Shown here one piece after another: positions 9,707 through 32,133 of a stretch of DNA of 32,133 nt (positions are counted from its first letter, which is position 1; every line of letters begins with the position of its first letter). The position numbers and the translations under genes were made by a program. The notes beneath the pieces are model-generated. The model did no database searches. It was not told the origin of the DNA and saw only the letters and a program-made list of their open reading frames with translations. Source of the DNA: Verrucomicrobiota bacterium. Its GTDB lineage: Bacteria > Verrucomicrobiota > Verrucomicrobiia > Opitutales > Opitutaceae. The stretch is from assembly GCA_016871775.1 (NCBI GenBank), contig VHCI01000028.1, positions 1-32,133 on the forward strand. Reading direction: 5' to 3'.

Positions 9707-12700
9707 ATGATTCCTTGCATCCCGCCCCTCCGAATCCGACCGGCCCGCATTGTCAGACTGGCCTGCCTGCTGACTGCACTCGCCGCAGGCAGCGGCCTCA
9801 CCCTGCCCGCCCCCGCCCTCGCCGCCGAACGCGCGGCCACCCCGGGCGTTGTGAGCGGCATCGTCACCAACAAGGCCACCGGCAACGGCCTGATCGGCGC
9901 CCGCGCCGAGATCCCCGCCCTCAACCTATCCGCTCTTGTCGACCAGACCGGCCGCTACCTGATTAGCGGCGTGCCCGCCGGCACCCACGAGCTGGTCGTC
10001 TCCTACACCGGCCTCGACACCCAGCGGATCTCCCTGACCGTCACCGCGGGCCAGACGGCGGTGCGGGACTTCGAGCTGACCAGCTCCGTGCTGATGCTTG
10101 ACACCTTCAAGGTCACCTCCGACAAGGCCGGCCTGTCCTCCGCGCTCACCCAGCAGCGCAATGCGGACAACCTGAGAAACGTGGCGTCGATGGACGCGTT
10201 GGTCGATCTGCCCAACATGAACGCCACCGAGCTGGCGATCCGCCTCCCTGGCGTCGCCTTCGGCAATCCGGGCGACGAGGTGGTCGAAGTCATCAGCGTG
10301 CGCGGGATGGGCGCCGGAATGAGCTCCATCACCATCGACGGAGGCGGGATGTCCTCCTTCAGCGCTCAGAACCGCAACACCCGGATGACCGCCTTCACCG
10401 GCGCGATGTTCGAGTCTCTCGAGGTAGTCAAAGGCCAGACGCCCGACAAGCCCGTCGACTCGCTGGGCGGCGGCGTGAACTTCAAGACCCGCTCGCCCCT
10501 CTCGATGCGCGAGAAGCGCCGCGTGACCCTAAACTTCACCGCCCGGATGGCCCCGTGGTTCACGGAGCAGGTACCGATCCGTGAACAGCGCCGCACCCAC
10601 GCGCTGATGAACGCTTCTTACATCGAGAAATTTGCCGCCTTCGGCAGCAAATCCGAGAACCTAGCCGTGTCGGTCAATGCCTTCTATTCGGAGAACGCCT
10701 TCGGCTTCTTCCGCTCCCAGCGCGATTATCAGCAGACTAATGCCCAGCCAGCCTTCGTCTGGGATTACCGCACGACCGACAATTATAACAACCGCAAGCA
10801 GCGCAGCCTGAACACGAAGTGGGACTATCGCTTCGACCAAAATAACCTGATCAAGCTGAATCTAATCTATAACGACGCGCCGGAGCCGATGCGCCGCCAG
10901 TACCAGCGGCGCGCCTTTGCCGGCAGCCAGACTACGGTGGCCAACGCCACAAACACGGGCGTGGTCCCGGGCTGGACGGACCGTATCACGACGGTGCGCG
11001 CCGTGCCCACGGCGGCCAACGCGACTTCCTCCACCACCGCGCCGGCCCTTATCGACATCACCTCCACCCTGATCAACCGCGACCAGCGCCTGCGGCATCT
11101 GGACCTCGCGGGTGAGCACATCCTGGGTCGCCTCGACATCGATTGGGCCGCGCTCTGGAGCCGCACCCGCTACCGCACCCTCGGTGCCGAGGCCGGGCTG
11201 GTGAACCGCATCGGCAACGTGCCGTTCACCGGGCCCGACGGCAGCCCCGGAAGCGCCACGAATAACATCCGAGGCCCAAACGGCGAGACCGGCGTGGGCT
11301 GGATTCTCGATCGCACTCAGAATGATCTCTACCCGCGCTTCATCCAGAACGGCGGCTTGGACTTCACCAATCCCGCCAATTACCGACCGTCCGTTAACGG
11401 GCTGAGCTCGAACTCCGGCAACCTTGACATCGACTTGATCAAGGAGGCCCGCGCCCACTTCAAGTACAAGCTGCCCTTCGAGGCCTTCTCTGCCTTCCTC
11501 AAGTCCGGCGGCCAAGTCCGCGACCACACGGTCGAGCTCGAACGCCGTGGCCGCCGCTGGAACTACCTCGGCACCACCGCGCTACCCACTGATCCATCGA
11601 TCCTGCTGTGGGACAGGGTGAAGACGGGCCGGAACCTTCCAACCTGGGACGCCGCCCCATTCATCCAGAACGGCCAGCCGACCAACCCCGCCCTGTGGCG
11701 CGAGGACATTTACTTCCGCGAGCAGAACCGCCTCGCCAACTCGAACAAGGTCAATGAGGTCATCACGGGCTACTACCTGATGACCCAAGGCCGCGCCGGC
11801 CGCACCGGCTTCCTCGCCGGCGTCCGACGCGAGGTCACCGAGACCGAGGGCATCTCCCGCATCCGCGCCCGCGTCCTCAGCACGGCGGCCCAACAGGCGG
11901 CCGACCCGATCGGCTCCGCGCAGCGCGACTACAAGGATGCCTACCTGAACGAGGGCAAGTACGGCCAGAACTTCCCCAGCATCCACCTGTGGCGCGACCT
12001 CACCGCCAACCTGAAGCTGCGTGGCGCCTGGACCACCGGCTTCGGCCGACCCTCGCTCGCCAACGCCCTGCCCAACTTCTCGTTCAACGACACCAACGAG
12101 ACGGTGTCCATCGGCAACCCCGCCCTGCTCCCGCAGCAGGCAAAGAACTGGGACTTCAGCCTCGAGTACTACTTCGAGCCGGCCGGCAGCTTCTCCGTGG
12201 GCTGGTTCCACAAGACCATCAGCGACTTCATCGTGGGCGCCCGCGAGACCGGCACGGTCGGCGTCGGCAACGACAACGGCTTTGAGGGCCAGTTCGAGGG
12301 CTACAAGATCCTCCAGTCGGTCAACGCCGGCACCGCCATCGCGCAGGGCTGGGAATTCGCTTACCAGCAGCAGTTCCGCTTCCTGCCGGGCCTGCTCCGT
12401 ACCCTGCGCCTGAACGCGAATATGACGCTGATCAACGCTCACGGCGACTTTGGCGGCGTCACCTACCTGTCGAACGGCCAGATCAACGGCTTCATCCCGC
12501 GCACCGGCAATGTCTCGGTCTCGTGGGATTACCGTAAGTTCGGCGTTTCTGTGAGCTACAACTACACCAGCAAGAGCATCCGCAACGCGTTCAACGTTGC
12601 GCAGCCCTCGCGCAACCAATACCTCAACGCGCGTGAGCTCGTGAACCTAAACCTACGCTACCAGCTGCGCTCCAACGTCACCGCGACCTTCGGCGTCGCG

Positions 12701-12808
12701 AACCTATTCAACGAGCCGCAGATCTACTACCGCGGCATCCCCGACCAGCTGGAAACCTTCCTGATGCAGGGCACCACCATCACGGCCGGCCTCGAGGGCC
12801 GCTTCTGA
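9707..12808 (+). CDS. TonB-dependent receptor with carboxypeptidase-regulatory-like domain
   Basis: This 1033-residue outer-membrane active transporter is energised by TonB-ExbBD. A signal peptide has a basic start, a hydrophobic core at about 18-33 and likely cleavage after ALA-39. Next comes a carboxypeptidase-D-regulatory-like beta domain (about 46-118, GVVSGIVTNKATGNGLIGA onward), then the plug (about 125-270, with VISVRGMGAGMSSITIDGGG and SLGGGVNFKTRS), then a long beta-barrel ending in LEGRF with a terminal Phe. The domain order matches SusC-like and Opitutaceae receptors, although no SusD gene is present. The ligand is unknown. A secreted Dabb protein follows after 17 bases and then a terminator, so the two form a compact operon. 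Divergent deoA lies 256 bases upstream. Confidence 0.93.
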   Translation: MIPCIPPLRIRPARIVRLACLLTALAAGSGLTLPAPALAAERAATPGVVSGIVTNKATGNGLIGARAEIPALNLSALVDQTGRYLISGVPAGTHELVVSYTGLDTQRISLTVTAGQTAVRDFELTSSVLMLDTFKVTSDKAGLSSALTQQRNADNLRNVASMDALVDLPNMNATELAIRLPGVAFGNPGDEVVEVISVRGMGAGMSSITIDGGGMSSFSAQNRNTRMTAFTGAMFESLEVVKGQTPDKPVDSLGGGVNFKTRSPLSMREKRRVTLNFTARMAPWFTEQVPIREQRRTHALMNASYIEKFAAFGSKSENLAVSVNAFYSENAFGFFRSQRDYQQTNAQPAFVWDYRTTDNYNNRKQRSLNTKWDYRFDQNNLIKLNLIYNDAPEPMRRQYQRRAFAGSQTTVANATNTGVVPGWTDRITTVRAVPTAANATSSTTAPALIDITSTLINRDQRLRHLDLAGEHILGRLDIDWAALWSRTRYRTLGAEAGLVNRIGNVPFTGPDGSPGSATNNIRGPNGETGVGWILDRTQNDLYPRFIQNGGLDFTNPANYRPSVNGLSSNSGNLDIDLIKEARAHFKYKLPFEAFSAFLKSGGQVRDHTVELERRGRRWNYLGTTALPTDPSILLWDRVKTGRNLPTWDAAPFIQNGQPTNPALWREDIYFREQNRLANSNKVNEVITGYYLMTQGRAGRTGFLAGVRREVTETEGISRIRARVLSTAAQQAADPIGSAQRDYKDAYLNEGKYGQNFPSIHLWRDLTANLKLRGAWTTGFGRPSLANALPNFSFNDTNETVSIGNPALLPQQAKNWDFSLEYYFEPAGSFSVGWFHKTISDFIVGARETGTVGVGNDNGFEGQFEGYKILQSVNAGTAIAQGWEFAYQQQFRFLPGLLRTLRLNANMTLINAHGDFGGVTYLSNGQINGFIPRTGNVSVSWDYRKFGVSVSYNYTSKSIRNAFNVAQPSRNQYLNARELVNLNLRYQLRSNVTATFGVANLFNEPQIYYRGIPDQLETFLMQGTTITAGLEGRF

Positions 12809-14407: not shown

Positions 14408-17400
14408 ATGCCCTGCCTTCGCGTACGCATTACCCAGCGTTGCCCGCTACGCCGAATGGTCTCGTGCGTCGCCGGCACGCTGTTGACCCTCATTGGGGCA
14501 GCGGGAGCGCTCGCGCAGGTCGCGCCCGGGGCCATCGAGGGCCGCATCGTGAACGCCCGCACCGGGGAATTTCTGGGCGGCGCGCGCGTGCGGCTCGGTC
14601 CAACCGGCGTGGAGGCCTTTTCCGATTCGGGCGGCTTCTACCAGCTGGCGCCCGTGCCGGCCGGGCCGGCCCAAGTCTCGGTCTTTTACACCGGCCTGCC
14701 GGCGGTGACCCTGCAGGTGCAGGTGACCGCGGGCCAGCCGGCGCGGCTCGACGTCTCCCTCGGGGGCAGCGCGGTGCAGCTGGACGCGTTCCGGGTGGCA
14801 ACCAGCCGGGAGATGGACGCCTCGGCGCTCGCCATCAACGAGCAGCGCTTCGCCTCGAACATCAAGACCGTGCTCTCGACGGAGGAGTTCGGGAACGTCG
14901 CCGAGGGCAACGTGGCCGAGTTCCTGAAGTTCCTGCCCGGCGTGACGATCGATTACACCGGCGGCAACGCCCGCGAGATCTCGATCAACGGCGTGCCCGC
15001 GAACAACGTGCCCGTGACGCTCGACGGCTTCAGCATCGCCTCGGCGCCCGGGGCCGCCACGGGGCGAAGCGTGCAGTCGGATATGATCTCGATCAACAAC
15101 CTCTCCCGCATCGAGGTCGCGTACTCCCCCACCCCCGAGTCCCAGGGCTCGGCGCTCGCCGGCTCGGTGAATATGGTGCCGCGCAGCGCCTTCGAGCGGG
15201 CCCGGCCGGTGCTCAACGCGAGCGTCTACGTGATCCTGCGGGACAATGCCCGTGACTTCCACAAGGTGCCCGGCCCGAAGCCGAGCCCGACGCGCAACGT
15301 GCATCCGGGCTTCGATTTCTCGTACGTCGCACCCGTCAATTCCCGCTTCGGCTACACCCTCTCCGCGGGCACCTCGACCAACTACTCGCCCCAGGACAAC
15401 TCGACGATGACCTGGCGCGGCGTCCAGTCCGCCACCAACGGCACCAACTTCCCCCATACCACGCCGGGCAACCCCTACCTCTCGCAGTACCTGATCCAGG
15501 ACGCCCCCAAGGTCACCACGCGCCGCTCCGTCGGCCTCAGCCTCGACTACAAGTTCACCCCGCGCGACCGCGTCACCCTCGGGTTCCAGTACTCCTCATT
15601 CGACGGGCAGTACATCGTCTCGAACGTGACCTTCAACGTGGGTGCGGTCGCCCCGGGGGCGTTCAGCCTGGACGCCGTGCGCGGCACGCCGGGGGCGGGC
15701 GTGCTCACCTCGGCGCACCAGGAGCGGAACCGGTTCAACCGGACGCGGATGCCGACGATCGTCTGGCGCCACGACGGGCCGGTCTGGCGGGGCGACCTCG
15801 GGTTCGGCTACTCGCTGCAGGACGACGGCAATCCCGACCTGCGCCAAGGCTACTTCCGCAACGTGACCCTGCAGCGCTCGAACGTGACGATCGACTTCAG
15901 CCGCATCTTCTACCTGCGGCCGGGGGAGATCGCGGTGCGGGACGGCGCGACAGGCCAGGCGGTGGACCCGTACGCGCTCGGCACCTACGCCCTCGTCTCG
16001 ACCACGACGCAGGATGACGTGACCATCGACCGCCAGCGCTCGGCCTACGGCAGCCTGCGCCGCGTTTTCGCCACGCGCCGGCCGTTCGTCCTGAAGGCGG
16101 GCTTCGACCTGCGCCAGAGTATGAGGGACCTCCGGGGCGGCACGGGGACCTTCAATTACGTGGGCAGCGACGGCCGCGGCAGCACGGGCCCGGGCGGCGA
16201 CGACTCCCCACTGCCGTTCTTCGACCCGATCTACTCGCAGCGCATTCTGCCCTACGGCTTCCCGCGGCTCGACACGCCGAGCAACCGCAAGGTGTACGAG
16301 CACTGGGTCGCGAACCCCGGCCAATACACCCAAAACGCCAACACGGTCTACCGGAACCAGGTCGCAGCGTCGCGGCGTTCCGAGGAGCTCATCTCCTCCC
16401 TGTACCTTCGCGGCGACCTCGGCCTGCTGGAGAACCGGCTCAAGCTCGTCGGCGGCCTCCGCGCGGAGCAGACCAGCGTGACCGGCGAGGGCCCGCTCAG
16501 CGATCCGACCCTCAATTACCAACAGGACAGCCGGGGCCAGATCCTGCGCGGGGCCAACGGGGCGCCGCTGCTGATCGTGCCCACGAGCAACGCCCTCGGG
16601 GTGTCGCAGCTGACCTACCTCGACCGCGGGGCCCGCGCGGAGAAGGAGTACCTGCGCTACTTCCCGAGCCTCAACGCGAGCTACAACCTCCAGGAGAACC
16701 TGATCGCGCGCGCCTCGTACTACCACTCCGTCGGCCGGCCCAATTTCATCCAGTACTCGGGCGGCTTCACGCTGCCCGACACCAGCAACCCGCCGTCCGC
16801 CGGCAACCGCCTCACCCTCAACAACGCCGCGATCAAGGCGTGGAACGCGCGCACCGTGAACGTCCGCCTCGAGCGCTACTTCGAGGGCGTGGGTCAGATC
16901 TCGCTCGGAGCCTTCCGCCGCACAATCGATGATTTCTTCGGGGCGACCGTCTTCGCCCCGACGCCCGAGTTCCTCGCCCTCTACGGCCTCGATCCCTCGG
17001 AGTACGGACCGTACGACGTCGCGACCCAGTACAACGTGCCCGGCGTTGTGCGCACGGAGGGCCTCGACTTCAGCTACAAGCAGGCCCTGACGTTCCTGCC
17101 GCCGTGGGCGCGCGGGGTGCAGGTGTTCGTCAACGGCAGCGCCCAGCGGGTGCTGGGGGACGAGACCATCTCCTTCGCCGGCTTCGTGCCCCGCAGCGGC
17201 AGCTGGGGGGTCAGCCTCACCCGCCCCCGCTACAATATCCGCGTGAACTGGAATTACCGCGGGCTTGCCCGGAACAACCGCCTGAACGGCGCGAGCATCG
17301 AGCCGGGCACCTTCAATTGGACCTCCAAGCGGCTCTACCTCGACGTGGTCGGCGAGGTCCAGCTGCGCGGCCGGATTTCGCTTTTCTACAATTTCCGCAA

Positions 17401-17521
17401 CATCGGAGACGCGACCGAGGACGTGAAGATCTACGGCCCGAGCACGCCGTCCGTGGCGCGTTTCCGGCAGCGCATCGACTACGCCTCGCTCTGGACCGTC
17501 GGACTCAAGGGCACCTTCTGA
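14408..17521 (+). CDS. TonB-dependent receptor (second)
   Basis: This 1037-residue outer-membrane receptor carries a signal peptide (hydrophobic core about 17-33, likely cleavage after ALA-36). A carboxypeptidase-regulatory-like domain follows (about 41-115, with GAIEGRIVNARTGEFLGGA). The plug spans about 140-265, including EFLKFLPGVTIDYTGGNARE, ISINGVPANNVPVTLDGFSI and SALAGSVNMVPRSAF. A large barrel ends in WTVGLKGTF. The ATG at 14408 is used; Met17 (14456) is possible and would give a shorter signal. It resembles the first receptor in plan but not closely in sequence, so a different ligand is likely. An M20 peptidase starts 56 bases after its stop in the same direction, which suggests a peptide or amino-acid conjugate as a candidate ligand. 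The leader is C/T-rich just before ATG. Confidence 0.93.
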   Translation: MPCLRVRITQRCPLRRMVSCVAGTLLTLIGAAGALAQVAPGAIEGRIVNARTGEFLGGARVRLGPTGVEAFSDSGGFYQLAPVPAGPAQVSVFYTGLPAVTLQVQVTAGQPARLDVSLGGSAVQLDAFRVATSREMDASALAINEQRFASNIKTVLSTEEFGNVAEGNVAEFLKFLPGVTIDYTGGNAREISINGVPANNVPVTLDGFSIASAPGAATGRSVQSDMISINNLSRIEVAYSPTPESQGSALAGSVNMVPRSAFERARPVLNASVYVILRDNARDFHKVPGPKPSPTRNVHPGFDFSYVAPVNSRFGYTLSAGTSTNYSPQDNSTMTWRGVQSATNGTNFPHTTPGNPYLSQYLIQDAPKVTTRRSVGLSLDYKFTPRDRVTLGFQYSSFDGQYIVSNVTFNVGAVAPGAFSLDAVRGTPGAGVLTSAHQERNRFNRTRMPTIVWRHDGPVWRGDLGFGYSLQDDGNPDLRQGYFRNVTLQRSNVTIDFSRIFYLRPGEIAVRDGATGQAVDPYALGTYALVSTTTQDDVTIDRQRSAYGSLRRVFATRRPFVLKAGFDLRQSMRDLRGGTGTFNYVGSDGRGSTGPGGDDSPLPFFDPIYSQRILPYGFPRLDTPSNRKVYEHWVANPGQYTQNANTVYRNQVAASRRSEELISSLYLRGDLGLLENRLKLVGGLRAEQTSVTGEGPLSDPTLNYQQDSRGQILRGANGAPLLIVPTSNALGVSQLTYLDRGARAEKEYLRYFPSLNASYNLQENLIARASYYHSVGRPNFIQYSGGFTLPDTSNPPSAGNRLTLNNAAIKAWNARTVNVRLERYFEGVGQISLGAFRRTIDDFFGATVFAPTPEFLALYGLDPSEYGPYDVATQYNVPGVVRTEGLDFSYKQALTFLPPWARGVQVFVNGSAQRVLGDETISFAGFVPRSGSWGVSLTRPRYNIRVNWNYRGLARNNRLNGASIEPGTFNWTSKRLYLDVVGEVQLRGRISLFYNFRNIGDATEDVKIYGPSTPSVARFRQRIDYASLWTVGLKGTF

Positions 17522-25885: not shown

Positions 25886-26530
25886 ATGCTGTCGCTCAAG
25901 AAACTGATGGGCAAAAACGAGAAGTTTTTCGACCTGCTGGAGGCGGGCGCGGAGGAGGCCAAGGTGAGCGTGACGCTGTTCAGCGTCGCGCTGCGCAAGT
26001 TGTCCGCCGGCAGCAACCCCGCCGATCTGCCGCTGGACGAGTTCATCCACGCCCGGCGCAAGGAGAAGCGGATCCGGGACCAGATGACGGAGGAGCTTAG
26101 CCGGACGTTCGTGACGCCGCTGGAGCGCGAGGACATTGAGGAGCTCTCCTTCGCCTTGTACCGGGTGCCGAAGCAGGTGGAGAAGATCGCTGAACGGCTG
26201 TCGATCTACCCCGGGCGCATCCCGTACACGGCCTTCGAGCGCCAGGCGCAGCTGATGACGCAGGCGGCGGAGGCCCTAGTGTTCATGGTGAAGCAGCTGC
26301 GCGGCGGCACCAACGCGGAGCGCATCCGCGACGCCAATCACCGTCTGCAGCACGCGGAGGGCGAGGCGGACAAGGTGATGCTGGAGCTGCTGCGCGAGCT
26401 CTACCAGGGGCCGTACGACGCCAAGGAGCTGGTGATCCTGCAGAACCTCTTCGAGATGGTGGAGCAGGCGATCGACCGCTGTCGCAACGCCGGCAACATC
26501 GTCGTGCAGATCGTGCTGAAGCACTCCTGA
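25886..26530 (+). CDS. DUF47 family phosphate transport regulator (PhoU-like)
   Basis: The 214-residue all-helical protein belongs to the DUF47/Pit accessory protein family, distantly related to PhoU. It begins MGKNEKFFDLLEAGAEEAKV, has the EKRIRDQMTEELSRTFVTPL and EREDIEELSFALYRVPKQVE segments, and ends in a helix rich in IDRCRNAGNIVVQIVL. PhoU-like acidic residues that may bind metal occur around EREDIEEL. The neighbouring Pit transporter starts 28 bases downstream. DUF47-Pit pairs are common and the DUF47 partner is thought to modulate the transporter. The ATG at 25886 is preceded by a short leader without a Shine-Dalgarno site. A promoter should lie in the 171-base gap shared with the divergent ABC operon. 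Confidence 0.92.
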   Translation: MLSLKKLMGKNEKFFDLLEAGAEEAKVSVTLFSVALRKLSAGSNPADLPLDEFIHARRKEKRIRDQMTEELSRTFVTPLEREDIEELSFALYRVPKQVEKIAERLSIYPGRIPYTAFERQAQLMTQAAEALVFMVKQLRGGTNAERIRDANHRLQHAEGEADKVMLELLRELYQGPYDAKELVILQNLFEMVEQAIDRCRNAGNIVVQIVLKHS

Positions 26531-26558: not shown

Positions 26559-27620
26559 ATGACGCTTTTTCTGCTCGTCCTGCTCGCCGCGCTGACGTTC
26601 GAGTACATCAACGGCTTCCACGACACCGCCAACGCAATCGCGACCGTCGTCTCGACCAAAGTGCTGACGCCGCGGGCAGCGGTTCTCTGGGCGGCCTTCT
26701 GGAACCTGATCGGCGCCCTAGTCGGTACCGCGGTGGCCAAGACAATCAGCGGGGGGCTCGTCGACGCCTCGGCGGTGACGATGACAACGGTGCTGGCCGC
26801 CCTCCTCGCGGCGATCATCTGGAACCTTTTCACTTGGTGGCTTGGCCTGCCCTCGAGTTCCAGCCACGCGCTGATCGGGGGCCTGTGCGGCGCCGCCCTC
26901 GCAACCGCGGCCGGCAAGTGGGACGTGCTCATCTGGCACGCGCAGGACGCCACGGGTAAATCGATGGGCCTGTGGCCGAAGGTGGTCCTACCGATGTTCA
27001 CCTCGCCCCTCATCGGTCTGATCGCGGGCGCCCTGCTGATGTGGCTGCTGTTGATCTTGCTTCGGGAGATGACGCCGCGGCTGGTGGGCCTGATCTTCGG
27101 CAAGGCCCAGCTGGTCAGCGCCGGGTTTATGGGCTTTAGCCACGGGTCGAACGACGCGCAGAAGGCGATGGGCATCATCACGCTTGCGCTGTTCACGGGA
27201 ACATCCACGGGCGTGTTCAATGATCTCCCTGACTGGGCGGGCTTCCTGCGAGTGAACGAGTTCAAGGATATCCCGATGTGGGTCGTCATCCTCTGCGCGA
27301 TCACGATGGCCGCCGGCACCGCCGCGGGCGGCTGGCGTATCATCCGCACGATGGGGCACAAGATGGTGAAGATGCAGCCCGTCCACGGCTTCGCCGCCGA
27401 GACCACCGCCGCCGCCATCCTCTACGGCACCGCCACCCTCGGGGTGCCTGTCTCCACCACGCACGTCATCTCGACCTCGATCATGGGCGTCGGCGCGACC
27501 AAGCGCCTCAGCGCGGTCAAATGGGGTGTGGTCCAGCGCATCCTGTGGGCGTGGGTCCTGACAATTCCCGTCACCGCACTGCTCGGCTACCTGCTAGAGC
27601 GCCTGTTCCTCCGCTTTTGA
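26559..27620 (+). CDS. pit: Inorganic phosphate transporter, PiT family
   Basis: The 353-residue membrane protein is a low-affinity phosphate (metal-phosphate) transporter driven by a cation gradient. The two inverted PiT signatures are clear: EYINGFHDTANAIATVVSTK near the N-terminus (about 15-34) and GFMGFSHGSNDAQKAMGIIT in the second half. LPSSSSHALIGGLCG and VPVSTTHVISTSIMGVG complete the repeat pairs. About ten hydrophobic helices are visible, with a long loop between the halves. It is coupled to DUF47 upstream by a 28-base gap. A C-rich leader precedes the ATG. No Pho-box-like repeat was recognised before the pair. Confidence 0.94.
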   Translation: MTLFLLVLLAALTFEYINGFHDTANAIATVVSTKVLTPRAAVLWAAFWNLIGALVGTAVAKTISGGLVDASAVTMTTVLAALLAAIIWNLFTWWLGLPSSSSHALIGGLCGAALATAAGKWDVLIWHAQDATGKSMGLWPKVVLPMFTSPLIGLIAGALLMWLLLILLREMTPRLVGLIFGKAQLVSAGFMGFSHGSNDAQKAMGIITLALFTGTSTGVFNDLPDWAGFLRVNEFKDIPMWVVILCAITMAAGTAAGGWRIIRTMGHKMVKMQPVHGFAAETTAAAILYGTATLGVPVSTTHVISTSIMGVGATKRLSAVKWGVVQRILWAWVLTIPVTALLGYLLERLFLRF

Positions 27621-27680
27621 GCCCGGGTGCGGCCGAGGTTTGCGGTTGTCTCCGCGGCCCGGCCAGCGAGCGTCGCGGCG

Positions 27681-29255
27681 GTGAACCAACCCCCGGGACA
27701 ACCCCCGCGCCGAGCAGCCCCGCCCCGCACGAGGCTGCTGGCCCTGCTGCTCGCGGCCGCGCCTGCCCCGCTCCCGGCGCAGGACGGGGCTGCGGGGGAC
27801 TTCAGCCGCCCGGACCTGGGCTACGTCCAGCGAGCCCCCATCTTCTTCCCCCCCACTCCGCCGCCCTTAGGCCGCGCGCTGCCCCCCACCCCGCTCGCCG
27901 AGGGCCGCCTCGCCGCCTCCGCCGAGATGGCCGCCCACATCAACGAGCCGTTCTACCCGCAGCTGGCCACCCGCCTGGCCACGCGGAAACTGTCCACGCG
28001 CCTGCGCGAGCGCGTCGACGCGTACCGGGAGCGCAAGGCGAAGCTGACTGAGGAAATGCGCGCGGAACTCGGGCGGACGCAGGTGCTCCCGGCCGCGGAA
28101 CGCGCGGCCGCGCTCGGCGGGCTGGCCTTCCGGCAGCGCGAGCCACTCCGCGCCCTCGAGGCGGAGGCGGAGGAGCTGCGCCGCGATCTGCAGGTGGCCG
28201 ACCAGACCTGGGGCGCGCTGCGGCAGTGGCGCCTTGGCAAAAACGAGCGCCGCGGATTCTCCCCGCTGGAGATCGCGCAGGTGATGCGATCCTACGCCTA
28301 CTACCAAAACGGCCTCCTGCCCGCGCAGCGCCGGCTACTCCGCGAGATCGCCCTCGAGCTGCAGGCCGCGGGCGAAACCGCCGAGGCGGCAGCGGTCAAC
28401 CAGCCGCACCTCTTCTTCCCGCCGGAACCGGCGCGCGTCCTGGCCCCCGACGACCTGCCGCCGGAGGTCGCCACCCGCCTCGCGCATTACCAGGCCCGCA
28501 AAGCCGCTCTGAAGAAGGAGCTGTTCGACGCCGTCCACGCGCACGACGGCCAAGCGTTCCCCTGGCTCCAGGGCAACACGATGTCCGCCCTGGCCCGCCG
28601 CCAGGAGGTTCCGCTCGCGGAACTCGAGCGGCTAGCCGAGGAGATCCGGCAGGGGCTGGCCGGCAACCCCGAGCCGGCACCCCTCGCCGAGCGCACCCCG
28701 CTGCCGCCCGTCCTTCAGGAACGCGTGGCCGCGCTACTCCGCGAGGTCGCCGCCGCGCAGCAGTCTGCGGTGACGCGGATCGAGGCCCTGCTCGCCGGCG
28801 CCCGCGACCTGCCGGTGCAGGCCAATTACCGGTTCGACTCCGAGGGCATCCGCTTCGTCGTCGTGCCCCTCCGGAGTGAGCGCGGAGCGAAGCCCGCCGC
28901 CCCGGACACCCCCGTCCGGCTCACCGCCCTGCGGGAGGGGATCAGCGCCGTGGCCGAGGACTACGGCCGCCGCCTCGCCGGCTTCATCAACGAGCGCGAC
29001 GCGATCCGCACCGAGGCTGGCGCGCTGCTCCAGCTGGGCCGCGCCGACCGGCTCGACCAGGCCCTGCAGACCGCGATGCGCGTGGCCAACGCCCGCGAGA
29101 CCCTCGAGGTCTACCGGGACTACCGCACGGCCCTCTTCGCCCCGGGACTTTCCCCCGAGCAGCGCCGCCTTCTCTTTGATCACGTGATCGTGCGCCTCGA
29201 GCTCCCGTTGCCCCGCGGCGAACTGCAGCCGGTGAACCGCGCGGCCACCTGGTAG
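27681..29255 (+). CDS. Exported protein of unknown function with internal duplication
   Basis: I do not recognise the family. From the GTG at 27681 the product is 524 residues; a GTG at 27627 is possible. A basic start and a Leu/Ala-rich core give a likely signal peptide with cleavage after PAQ-34. The mature part is largely charged helix, with coiled-coil character. It is built from two similar halves. Half A has IFFPP (54-58), RVDAYRERKAKL (111-122), RQREPLRALEAEAEELR (151-167) and YYQNGLLPAQRRLL (207-220). Half B has LFFPP (244-248), RLAHYQARKAALKKEL (266-281), RRQEVPLAELERLAEEIR (306-323) and YRTALFAPGLSPEQRRLL (481-498). Half B has an extra segment of about 150 residues (327-476). No catalytic motif is visible. 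It lies 60 bases after pit, probably as a separate unit, and is convergent with the next gene. Confidence 0.75.
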   Translation: MNQPPGQPPRRAAPPRTRLLALLLAAAPAPLPAQDGAAGDFSRPDLGYVQRAPIFFPPTPPPLGRALPPTPLAEGRLAASAEMAAHINEPFYPQLATRLATRKLSTRLRERVDAYRERKAKLTEEMRAELGRTQVLPAAERAAALGGLAFRQREPLRALEAEAEELRRDLQVADQTWGALRQWRLGKNERRGFSPLEIAQVMRSYAYYQNGLLPAQRRLLREIALELQAAGETAEAAAVNQPHLFFPPEPARVLAPDDLPPEVATRLAHYQARKAALKKELFDAVHAHDGQAFPWLQGNTMSALARRQEVPLAELERLAEEIRQGLAGNPEPAPLAERTPLPPVLQERVAALLREVAAAQQSAVTRIEALLAGARDLPVQANYRFDSEGIRFVVVPLRSERGAKPAAPDTPVRLTALREGISAVAEDYGRRLAGFINERDAIRTEAGALLQLGRADRLDQALQTAMRVANARETLEVYRDYRTALFAPGLSPEQRRLLFDHVIVRLELPLPRGELQPVNRAATW

Positions 29256-29300: not shown

Positions 29301-30692
29301 CTAAAGTCCGAGCACCCGCAACACGCCTTGCGCCGCCCGCTCCCACCACCGGCGGGCCGCGGCGGCCGCGCCGGGGGCACCCGCGGACTCGAGCAAAATG
29401 AGACCTGGCCCCGCGAGCTGATCGTCCCACAACGGATGGCGTCCGCGGTAGTAGCTCCAGAAGGTCTCCGCGCGGACCGGACGACGCGCCACGCCGAGGG
29501 AATGGCCGATGACGAGATCCGCCTGCATCCGGCGGACGCCCCCCGCGAGGGCTTCCGCCCGGACGCCCCGCCGCCCAGCCACCGCGAGCACGCAGGGCCC
29601 GCTCCACACAAAATGGCGGAAGCGCCCGCCCACCCACGCCTGCCACGACGTCAGGTGCCAGCGGGCCCGTAGCCGAACCGGCGCTTCGACGGCCGCCAGT
29701 ACGCCCACGACGTGGCGCGGGCTCAACACCAGAGCCTCCCCCGTGGGCACCTCCACCGCCGCCAGTTCCTGCTGCGGATCCTCGCGGCTCGCCAAGGCGA
29801 CCTCCGCCGCTTGTCCGGCCTCCGGACGGAGTTCCTGCAACTCGTGCCAGCCCGCGGCGAGGCTCGTGAGCGGCGCGCCCGGATCGAGCAGCCAGCGGGT
29901 CCGGCGGCGGAAAACGTCGTCCAACGATTGCAGGTATTCCGGCTTCACCCACAGGTGCTCGTCGGGGCCGACCGGAAACCGTAGAACCACCCCTGCGGCC
30001 CGGATCCGGGGCGAAGCCGGGGCCTCGGGCCCTAGCCGCAACGGGCGCCCCCGCGAGATCCACGGGCCCAGCAAGAAGAACGCGAACAGCGCCCATAGCG
30101 TCGGGCCGGCGAACACGAGGAATAGCGTCGCCGCCACCGGCACGCGGACCGCGGTCCAGGCCGCTTCCAGTCGCCGCCAGAACGGCGACTGTCCGGCCTC
30201 GGCCACCGCCAGTTCCAGCCGCACCCGTCCCAGCGCCTGCTCCGCCTGCCCATCCTCCCCCGTAAGGCTTTCGAGGAGGGCGTCCGTAACCGCGATCCGG
30301 CGGCGCGTCTCCGCCTGCATCTCCTCCATCCGCCGGCGCCGTTCCGCGTTGGTGGCGACCTGAGCGGGATCGCCGAACCAGCGTTCCCACCAGCCAGAGG
30401 CTTCCTCCAGCGCGGCCAGCACCCGCGCGGCGCGGCGCAGCCGCTCCTGCTGCTCCTCGAGGTCACGGCGCGCCCCGGCCAGGCGCCCGGCCAGTTCCGC
30501 CCGCCACAACAGCAACCGCGTCTCCTCCTGTCGTCCCGCTTCCACCCGCGCCCGCCGCTCGCCCTCGCGCAGCGTTTCCTCGCCGGCCAGCGTCCAGATC
30601 AACCTCGCGCCGACCGCCAACGCGATGATCGCGAGGGCCAGCCCCAGCCGGCGGCCGAGGGCGGCCGCGAGCGGGAGCAGGAGAGCGTGCAT
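29301..30692 (-). CDS. Membrane coiled-coil protein with possible AIM24-like domain
   Basis: This is an uncharacterised protein of 463 residues. A transmembrane helix at about 12-34 is followed by a long Arg/Glu-rich coiled coil (about 40-165), then a hydrophobic stretch at 184-212 that could be one or two helices. The C-terminal globular part (about 230-440) is rich in strands. Its segments VEVPTGEALVLSPRHVVGVL, FRHFVWSGPCVLAVAGRRG and LAGPGLILLES resemble by eye the beta-sandwich AIM24 family, whose members end with a 'GpG.v.lqs' strand. That likeness is tentative and no function follows from it. The ATG at 30692 opens just before the first helix. It stands alone on the minus strand, 311 bases from the L,D-transpeptidase gene. 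Confidence 0.7.
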   Translation of the reverse strand: MHALLLPLAAALGRRLGLALAIIALAVGARLIWTLAGEETLREGERRARVEAGRQEETRLLLWRAELAGRLAGARRDLEEQQERLRRAARVLAALEEASGWWERWFGDPAQVATNAERRRRMEEMQAETRRRIAVTDALLESLTGEDGQAEQALGRVRLELAVAEAGQSPFWRRLEAAWTAVRVPVAATLFLVFAGPTLWALFAFFLLGPWISRGRPLRLGPEAPASPRIRAAGVVLRFPVGPDEHLWVKPEYLQSLDDVFRRRTRWLLDPGAPLTSLAAGWHELQELRPEAGQAAEVALASREDPQQELAAVEVPTGEALVLSPRHVVGVLAAVEAPVRLRARWHLTSWQAWVGGRFRHFVWSGPCVLAVAGRRGVRAEALAGGVRRMQADLVIGHSLGVARRPVRAETFWSYYRGRHPLWDDQLAGPGLILLESAGAPGAAAAARRWWERAAQGVLRVLGL

Positions 30693-31003: not shown

Positions 31004-31633
31004 TCAGACTGCCAGCGAGCGCGGGTTGAACACGGCGAACGCCCCGGGCCGCAGCAGGCGCAGCAGCGCAACCATTTCCTCCCGCGGGAGCGCTAGACAC
31101 CCCGCGGTGCCACCGCTCCGGTCGTCGCGCACGTGGACGAAGATCGCGCTGCCAGCCCCCGGGACCACCGGGTGGCGGTTGTAATCCAGCGCGAGGCCAA
31201 ACTCGTAGAGGGCGTCATCGCGGCGCATCCGCTCGACGCTGCGGGCCGGATGCGGCGCGGTGACCCAGAGGTTGTAATCGGGGGACTCCGGGTCGTCGAC
31301 CCAGAGGTCCGCCGCGGTGCAGCACCGATAGGGCAACGCCGTATCCCCCGCCGGCGCGTAGCCAAAGGCGAGACTGATTCTGAAGCTACCGGAAGGGGAC
31401 TTGCCATCGCCCTCGCGTTTCGCCCCGGGCGCGGCAAAACCCGCCCGCCCCGCGACCGCCTCGCCGCAGGTCCAGATCCGCGCCCAGCCGCTCGGCCCGT
31501 CCGCCCACAGGCTGGCGTGCGCCGCTGGCAGGAAGGCCCCCGGTTCCGCAACCAGCGCCTGCGGCGCGGCGGCGGCGCGCAGACGCGGCCCCCAGCCCGG
31601 CCCTTCGGGCGCCCCGCCTCCAGCGGGGCTCAC
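31004..31633 (-). CDS. L,D-transpeptidase catalytic domain protein (YkuD)
   Basis: The 209-residue protein belongs to the ErfK/YbiS-like (COG3786-type) L,D-transpeptidases, which crosslink peptidoglycan or attach proteins to it through an active-site Cys. GAKREGDGKSPSGSFRI (70-86), LAFGY, LWVDDPESPDYNLWV (110-124), IFVHVRD with His167, and SGGTAGCLALP with catalytic Cys179 follow in the expected order. The GTG start at 31633 overlaps the stop of the upstream gene in GTGA, implying coupled translation. From that start there is no obvious signal peptide (the first 25 residues are Gly/Pro/Ala with Arg18), although the substrate is periplasmic. The true start might be elsewhere or export unusual. 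A stem-loop lies just after the stop. Confidence 0.85.
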   Translation of the reverse strand: MSPAGGGAPEGPGWGPRLRAAAAPQALVAEPGAFLPAAHASLWADGPSGWARIWTCGEAVAGRAGFAAPGAKREGDGKSPSGSFRISLAFGYAPAGDTALPYRCCTAADLWVDDPESPDYNLWVTAPHPARSVERMRRDDALYEFGLALDYNRHPVVPGAGSAIFVHVRDDRSGGTAGCLALPREEMVALLRLLRPGAFAVFNPRSLAV

Positions 31634-32133
31634 GGCGTCACGGCCAAGCGGCCGGGAACCCGGTGCACGGTACCGGCGATCACCCGTACCACCTCGCGGC
31701 CGTCGGCGTCGCGCAGGCGGCAGGTCAACTCGACCACCTGCGCGGGCATGAGCCCGGGGATGACTAAACGCACCACCCGCGGATCCTCCACGGTAACGGC
31801 GGAGGCGACGGGCCACGTGCGCTCGTTCAGGCGGGGGCTCCCGTAGCTCGCGCTCCGCCGCAGGTCCCAGGCCCGCACTGTGAAGTCACCCGCGGCGACC
31901 GCACCAAGCGGGTCGCTGAAGGTCAGGTCCACCCCGTCCGACCGGATGTGCCACCCCACGGGCAGGAGCGCCGGCCGGCCCGTCGGCCAGAGCCGGAAGA
32001 ACCCGCCCTCCTGCAGGGTCTGCGAGGTCGCCCAAGCCGCGAGGCCAGCGAGGTAGAGTTCCCCGGAGCCGGGATGGAAGCGTGCCCGCATTACCCCGGT
32101 CGGGAAATCGGGCACGGGAAGCGCGCACACGGC
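31630..32133 (-). CDS. C-terminal part of a large haem/quinoprotein-type (sorbosone dehydrogenase-like) protein, partial
   Basis: The gene runs off the right edge; 167 residues of its C-terminus are seen. The sequence DFPTGVMRARFHPGSGELYL, AGLAAWATSQTLQEGGFFRL and DGVDLTFSDPLGAVAAGDFT followed by WDLRRSASYGS resembles the last beta-propeller blade and Ig-like tail of large PVC-group proteins. Those combine a glucose/sorbosone-dehydrogenase propeller with cytochrome c or DUF6797 domains. The remaining strands (VVRLVIPGLMPAQVVELTCR) fit an Ig-like C-terminal domain. No haem-binding CxxCH lies in the visible part, so this rests on similarity recalled from such families. The stop overlaps the L,D-transpeptidase start by 4 bases (GTGA), an operon arrangement. 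Confidence 0.55.
   Translation of the reverse strand, partial: AVCALPVPDFPTGVMRARFHPGSGELYLAGLAAWATSQTLQEGGFFRLWPTGRPALLPVGWHIRSDGVDLTFSDPLGAVAAGDFTVRAWDLRRSASYGSPRLNERTWPVASAVTVEDPRVVRLVIPGLMPAQVVELTCRLRDADGREVVRVIAGTVHRVPGRLAVTP

Follow-up and report, generated by a model that had tools for sequence, protein, structure and literature searches.

The window, the 32,133-nt stretch of Opitutaceae DNA analysed here, carries a gene (27681–29255, + strand) whose 524-residue product is an exported-looking helical-repeat protein and whose closest homologues lie recurrently beside phosphate genes. Our preferred reading, in which we place about even confidence, is that it belongs to a family, unnamed and lineage-restricted, of exported proteins with helical repeats that act as accessories in phosphate homeostasis, uptake or sensing. 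The link to phosphate rests on genomic context: since phosphate neighbours are nearly always present in the clade that includes the window protein, the protein is probably part of phosphate acquisition or sensing. The main alternative is that its position is a remnant of an ancestral phosphate cluster and reflects no common function.

The reading frame spans positions 27627–29255 of the + strand, and GTG 27681 is its most likely start according to the ORF list and a home-made gene call. The frame is a real gene, delimited by the ORF, the gene call and a 31-row family alignment; in a relative of 93% identity, it is kept in its entirety, with no stop. The initial annotation described the product as exported. 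According to sequence reading and a simple hydrophobicity rule, residues 1–33 (27681–27779) are signal-peptide-like, comprising basic residues followed by a hydrophobic stretch, with a candidate cut after residue 33. The export-like start was thus seen as described, and we infer export from it. Under a loose, home-made rule, a signal-peptide-like start was assigned to 68 of 92 family rows, some rows of the set being truncated or having doubtful starts; a lipobox-like string occurred in one row of the same set.

The four motifs that had been described as occurring twice, in the same order, in the two halves of the protein were all located twice and in that order. The FFPP motif was found by motif search and in the 31-row alignment at residues 55–58 (27843–27854), where F56, P57 and P58 are invariant or nearly so, and at residues 245–248 (28413–28424). 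The R...Y..RKA.L helix lies at residues 111–122 and 266–277, the RQ..PL..LE..AEE[IL]R helix at residues 151–167 and 307–323, and the QRRLL motif at residues 216–220 and 494–498. A first helical hairpin, predicted from the helices of a module model and the repeat tests, spans residues 106–184 (27996–28232), and a second, predicted from profile tests and the helices of a low-confidence full-length model, spans residues 261–327 (28461–28661). The corresponding QRRLL helices, delineated by motif search, profile comparison and the module or low-confidence model, respectively, occupy residues 205–229 (28293–28367) and 481–505 (29121–29195). All of these features are on the + strand.

The similarity of the two halves exceeded chance, as the proposal of a two-copy module implied: their local alignment scored 85 as compared to a mean of 43 for shuffled sequences, and 1 of 2000 shuffles scored as high. 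When hairpin 1 was compared with hairpin 2, and the first QRRLL segment with the second, in the single sequence, none of 2000 shuffles reached the score in either case. Profile–profile comparison of the same pairs using 31 rows yielded probabilities of 98.8 (E 8.6e-17) and 96.4 (E 1.1e-9), respectively, and using 92 rows, probabilities of 98.8 and 96.9. A column-shuffle control with 31 rows, comprising the best 3 of 30 shuffles per pair, gave probabilities of up to 4.0 and 17.6.

The second half had also been said to contain about 150 extra residues. The extra stretch is present, but it is shorter and is not a plain insert. The interval between the end of the RQ..AEEIR helix and the tyrosine preceding QRRLL measures 41 residues in the first half versus 158 in the second, so the stretch amounts to ∼117 residues. 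At the profile level, and with divergent members only, it includes an eroded third copy of the hairpin (residues ∼340–449; 28698–29027, +). This hairpin matched hairpins 1 and 2 with probabilities of 93.4 and 90.1 using 31-row profiles, and of 97.1 (E 6.3e-11) and 96.7 (E 3.5e-10) using 92-row profiles. In the 92-row column-shuffle control, the best of 40 scores were 12.2 and 15.0, versus 57.5 and 53.6 for the real profiles; with reversed profiles, the probabilities were 13.3 and 2.8. By contrast, the window clade of 30 rows alone gave non-significant probabilities of 9.4 and 1.9, indicating that the third copy has eroded beyond recognition in this clade. Single-sequence comparisons of hairpin 3 with hairpins 1 and 2 were equalled or exceeded by 1275 and 641 of 2000 shuffles, respectively. 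Hairpin 3 is tipped by a predicted β-hairpin (residues 379–396; 28815–28868, +) that derives from the low-confidence full-length model, and this segment is mostly absent from several distant paralogues in the 31-row alignment. The architecture of the family is accordingly FFPP – hairpin – QRRLL helix – FFPP – hairpin – hairpin – QRRLL helix, with the hairpin present three times at the profile level and the FFPP and QRRLL elements twice.

Structure prediction of the full-length protein from six close sequences was poor (pLDDT 53.6). The helices of this model include residues 106–133, 153–184, 214–229, 261–287, 312–327, 343–372, 410–449 and 492–505, and its strands comprise residues 379–386 and 389–396. 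Module 1 alone (residues 81–240) was predicted with fair confidence (pLDDT 80.8, pTM 0.65), its main helices being residues 106–134, 138–184, 195–209 and 214–229. Both models thus agree with the helical character originally ascribed to the protein. A Foldseek search with the module 1 model returned 75 matches up to E 10, none of them at E 0.001 or better. VIA-align with the same model returned 48 chains with Z of 5 or more and none at 8; the top matches, APP-family E2 domains at Z 7.2, are within the range of this tool for models without a clear match. As judged from the predicted model, the fold searches do not show the fold to be new, nor do they identify it with a known one.

The protein had been said to fit no known family. 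Consistent with this, Pfam yielded nothing above cut-off and NCBIfam nothing at E up to 1, and the fold searches gave no significant match. Its matches to SKA2 and a glycosyltransferase (E 0.17 and 0.21) were attributed to chance. A FliG match in a PDB sequence search (E 1e-4, profile positions 292–439) found no other support and was read as helical composition. Matches to YpeB, in 3 of 31 members with NCBIfam (best E 0.005) and 4 of 31 with Pfam (best E 0.014), were dismissed as weak, as was a GDSL lipase match of a single member (E 0.0015).

As judged by record titles, the family is confined almost wholly to Opitutaceae. A single-sequence search detected homologues in 27 of 57 relatives, representing 2 of 31 genera, and a profile search within the same bacterial family detected them in 64 of 200 genomes, representing 23 of 49 genera. 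Across the phylum, 10 of 387 genomes had a match; nine belong to the same family, and the tenth match is weak. The candidate from another family of the phylum (G136), a frame of 145 aa with E-values of 5.1e-6 and 6.6e-5, was too short to count and was not included in the tree. The nearest named relatives are Opitutaceae, Opitutia, Opitutae and Verrucomicrobia bacteria. The window genome has one copy; other genomes have up to five matches, some of which are two pieces of one gene. The sample comprised 103 family genes from 101 stretches, of which 92 were placed in the tree; ten genes matching fewer than 330 profile positions were left out, as was L152, which is split over two frames with no gene call. 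Some paralogues have constant neighbours of another kind: those of L040, L046 and L047 lie between a Suv3-like helicase gene and an RlmN-like gene (the latter identified by eye), and those of L036 and L038 follow RapA.

In the window, the repeat-protein gene is the third of three genes on the + strand. The first gene of this putative operon encodes a DUF47 (PhoU_div) protein (25886–26530; PF01865, E 1.3e-7) and the second a PiT-type phosphate transporter (26559–27620; PF01384, E 4.3e-96), with gaps of 28 and 60 bases. No terminator-like site was found on the + strand between the PiT and repeat-protein genes. In the window clade, the gene would probably share a transcript with the phosphate uptake system that the respective genome employs, or be expressed next to it.

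The window clade comprises 30 rows and has a support of 82 in the 92-row tree. Support rises to 95 for a set of 34 rows, the next larger one, in which L147, L151, L156 and L169 join the 30; none of these four has a phosphate neighbour. A search for homologues and their neighbours, suggested at the outset, revealed a phosphate gene within 1 kb of the repeat-protein gene in 27 of the 30 clade rows: PiT in 15, a PstS/OprP/PhoR-type gene in 9, a Na/Pi cotransporter in 2 (PF02690, E 1.7e-56 and 8.1e-56) and polyphosphate kinase in 1. The exceptions are L119, in which OprP is 6 kb away, L079, which has only a YdcF/ElyC-like gene, and L171, at a contig end. These counts rest on tblastn distances because antisense ORFs of the gene caller hid PiT and DUF47 in L117. 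The Na/Pi cotransporter and polyphosphate kinase were not among the tblastn queries; they were identified by eye and checked with Pfam, only in clade rows with no other phosphate neighbour. Representative PstA, PstB, PhoU and PstS proteins reached the NCBIfam curated cut-offs (TIGR00974, TIGR00972, TIGR02135 and TIGR02136, respectively), and the OprP-like porin matched PF07396; the PhoB and PhoR labels are best matches under the NCBIfam cut-offs. Near the copies of L116, L118, L119, L121–L123 and L167 lies a gene for a voltage-gated chloride channel with CBS domains; the one member scanned matched PF00654.

Among genomes of the same genus, PiT is present in 18 of 27, and the repeat-protein gene is beside it in 16 of these 18. 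Two genomes, G017 and G020, have no PF01384 match at all, and a Na/Pi cotransporter occupies the usual place of DUF47–PiT. In a careful tree of the 30 clade rows and 3 outgroup rows, the type of neighbour underwent at least six changes on the best tree (27 labelled rows), and the PiT label alone underwent 5 to 6 changes across bootstrap trees. The phosphate neighbours may in part be remnants of one ancestral cluster (L048, L073), so the six changes do not represent six independent recruitments. The pst-phoU-phoB-phoR operon of the window genome (L179) has no copy of the repeat-protein gene alongside. The constant feature of the window clade is phosphate uptake by non-homologous transporters, not any single gene.

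These neighbourhoods bear on the competing view that the protein serves Opitutaceae as a scaffold or structural component of the envelope in general, unconnected with phosphate, its gene having been retained from a broken ancestral DUF47–PiT–gene–PhoRB–Pst cluster. Clusters that join most of these genes do exist (L048, L073, L074 and L117), and the neighbours are unrelated in 33 of the 62 rows outside the window clade. Against this view stand the non-homologous Na/Pi cotransporter in the usual place of DUF47–PiT in the two genomes lacking PiT, the copy that adjoins polyphosphate kinase, and the persistence of the phosphate theme through at least six changes of neighbour on the best tree. We consider this view rather unlikely. 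The earlier suggestion of a scaffold or periplasmic adaptor received no specific support, the neighbourhoods pointing to phosphate uptake and sensing. Under the preferred reading of an accessory protein of phosphate homeostasis, the window-clade protein would act outside the inner membrane, helping phosphate uptake or phosphate sensing; proteins of the family would presumably touch the transporter or the kinase and respond to phosphate.

Outside the window clade, the recurrent neighbours are two-component genes. An HKx histidine kinase gene lies within 410 bases of the repeat-protein gene in 24 of the 92 tree rows, all of them among the 62 outside the window clade. The usual order is σ54 response regulator – (barrel) – repeat-protein gene – HKx kinase, several of the barrel labels having been assigned by eye. 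According to Pfam, the regulator contains Response_reg, Sigma54_activat and HTH_8 domains, and the two HKx kinases scanned contain HATPase domains only. The σ54 two-component pair is the commonest feature of the sister clades and is twice found beside phosphate genes. In L048 (G030), a single 15-kb stretch encodes DUF47, PiT, the σ54 regulator, a barrel-like protein, the repeat protein, the kinase, PhoU, PstB and PstA; in L148, the regulator/repeat-protein/kinase trio adjoins PhoR–PhoB-type genes. Overall, phosphate genes are nearby in 7 of the 62 rows outside the clade (L048, L116_3, L122, L123, L144, L148 and L149), and 33 have neither a phosphate nor a two-component neighbour, some of these having short flanks.

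Relatives of the kinase and regulator also occur without the repeat-protein gene, in the window genome (L180), G008 (L181) and G022 (L182), and relatives of the kinase are more widely spread than the repeat family (29 of 57 genomes and 7 of 31 genera). In the window genome, these genes are on contig C29 (L180, 6561–11136), where a barrel-like protein, identified by eye, and a small protein are encoded between the σ54 regulator and the HKx-like kinase, with no repeat protein. The gene order in the sister clades suggests an exported kinase partner: encoded between the regulator and kinase genes, a protein of the same fold would serve as the exported partner of this membrane histidine kinase.

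Sequences resembling σ54 promoters were also found in these clades. We scored a site as σ54-like if it matched at least 10 of 12 positions of a −24/−12 consensus, considering genes with at least 100 bases upstream. Such a site precedes 9 of the 24 repeat-protein genes in the kinase context and is absent at this threshold from the other 15. Among family genes outside this context, it precedes 4 of 71, and among genes of other kinds, 28 of 698. Fisher's test of 9/24 versus 28/698 gave p = 6.8e-7, a value that is only indicative because the genes are related. The enrichment applies to the sister clades, the window gene being outside the kinase context. Among the outer-membrane-barrel genes of one cluster that lie between the regulator and the repeat-protein gene, all five (4 loci) have a site. 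In the sister clades, the repeat protein would be made from a promoter under the adjacent σ54 regulator. DUF3450 genes divergent from the regulator have a σ54-like site upstream in 5 of 7 cases; DUF3450–ExbB genes are divergent from the σ54 regulator in L129, L130, L132–L134 and L150. The same σ54 control may extend to an ExbB-type energising system.

By contrast, the upstream sequences examined here do not support control of the window operon by PhoB. We searched with an 18-position matrix trained on sites upstream of OprP genes, using as threshold the 2% level in controls. No Pho-box-like site reached this threshold upstream of the DUF47, PiT or repeat-protein gene of the window. The matrix matched 7 of 8 OprP and 4 of 4 OprP2 genes, which are training genes, and 4 of 31 PstA/C genes. 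It matched 0 of 14 DUF47 genes and 2 of 95 family genes, which is the background rate (14 of 672 controls). The Pho-box-like repeat TTGTCAC-N4-CGTCAC precedes OprP-type genes in L053, L116, L119–L123, L136, L137 and L160, lying ∼80–95 bases ahead of the start in most of these loci.

The two types of neighbourhood could be joined in a new class of three-component phosphate system, in which the exported repeat protein would monitor or gate phosphate outside the inner membrane and signal to the histidine kinase and σ54 regulator, and the window-clade protein would be a transporter-independent adaptor (of PiT, Pst or Na/Pi). We regard this scheme as tentative and rather unlikely. AioXSR provides a parallel: in this system, an exported protein feeds the kinase, and that protein, AioX, is a solute-binding protein. 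AioXSR is named as a system in PMC4563254. In both cases, the gene of an exported or exported-looking protein accompanies those of a kinase and a regulator; the repeat family differs in being a helical repeat and in having matched no binding-protein family.

PhoU and DUF47 proteins, too, are helical accessories of phosphate transport, with genes that accompany those of Pst or PiT; here a DUF47 gene is two genes upstream. However, PhoU and DUF47 proteins are cytoplasmic whereas the repeat protein has an export-like N-terminus. Neither PF01895 nor PF01865 was matched by the window protein at E up to 1, and a PhoU chain in the PDB was only a non-significant profile match (E 3).

By analogy with the action of CpxP on CpxA, the protein might be a Spy/CpxP-like periplasmic chaperone or stress sensor acting on the histidine kinase. 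Spy/CpxP proteins are exported, helical and sometimes linked to a two-component system, and they form a small four-helix dimer shaped like a cradle. The repeat protein is similarly exported-looking and helical, with a hairpin in the module 1 model and a short repeated L-x-x-x-Q-like helix start (GLSPEQRRLL and GLLPAQRRLL), and a kinase gene is adjacent in 24 of 92 rows; its L(S/L)PxQR helix starts presumably resemble the LTxxQ motif. Nevertheless, no LTXXQ or metal-resistance family was among the best 25 of the 42 Pfam families matched by 31 members (E up to 1), and the window protein itself had no LTXXQ match in Pfam at E up to 1. Moreover, the repeat protein has ∼490 residues, Spy being several times smaller, and three hairpins at the profile level; neighbours of the phosphate kind are unusual for Cpx systems. 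We consider such a function quite improbable. Least probable of all is a periplasmic storage or buffering protein, a putative binder of phosphate or polyphosphate: the three unrelated transporter types and polyphosphate kinase among the neighbours and the invariant Arg, Lys and Gln residues of the 31-row alignment would suit it, but no known phosphate-binding family was matched and Foldseek found no significant fold match.

Work on bacterial phosphate uptake and sensing has centred mostly on PhoBR, PhoU and PstSCAB. To our knowledge, exported accessory proteins accompanying PiT have not been described. A family that goes with three unrelated transporter types and with a σ54 two-component operon is a testable candidate for a component of phosphate sensing or uptake in Opitutaceae. 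In the open-access literature, to which our search was confined (subscription papers and preprints being outside its scope), no paper linking Opitutaceae, a phosphate transporter and PiT was found. Among matches on Opitutaceae with phosphate, PstS or two-component systems, the repeat protein was absent from the titles and opening parts of the abstracts of those listed. The titles of papers on DUF47/PitA and phosphate indicated no exported PiT partner; PMC7326077 concerns PhoU homologues of Staphylococcus aureus. A search on sandwiched accessory proteins found nothing related.

Elsewhere in the window, the repeat-protein gene is convergent with a gene (29301–30692, − strand) encoding a 463-aa membrane-like protein that has no Pfam match at E up to 1 and is kept in L071, L072 and L171. 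An L,D-transpeptidase (YkuD) gene lies at 31004–31816 on the − strand (PF03734, E 2.7e-8). Two ORFs on the + strand (9707–12805 and 14456–17518) encode proteins of 1033 and 1021 aa that have export-like starts and, by eye, resemble TonB-dependent receptors.
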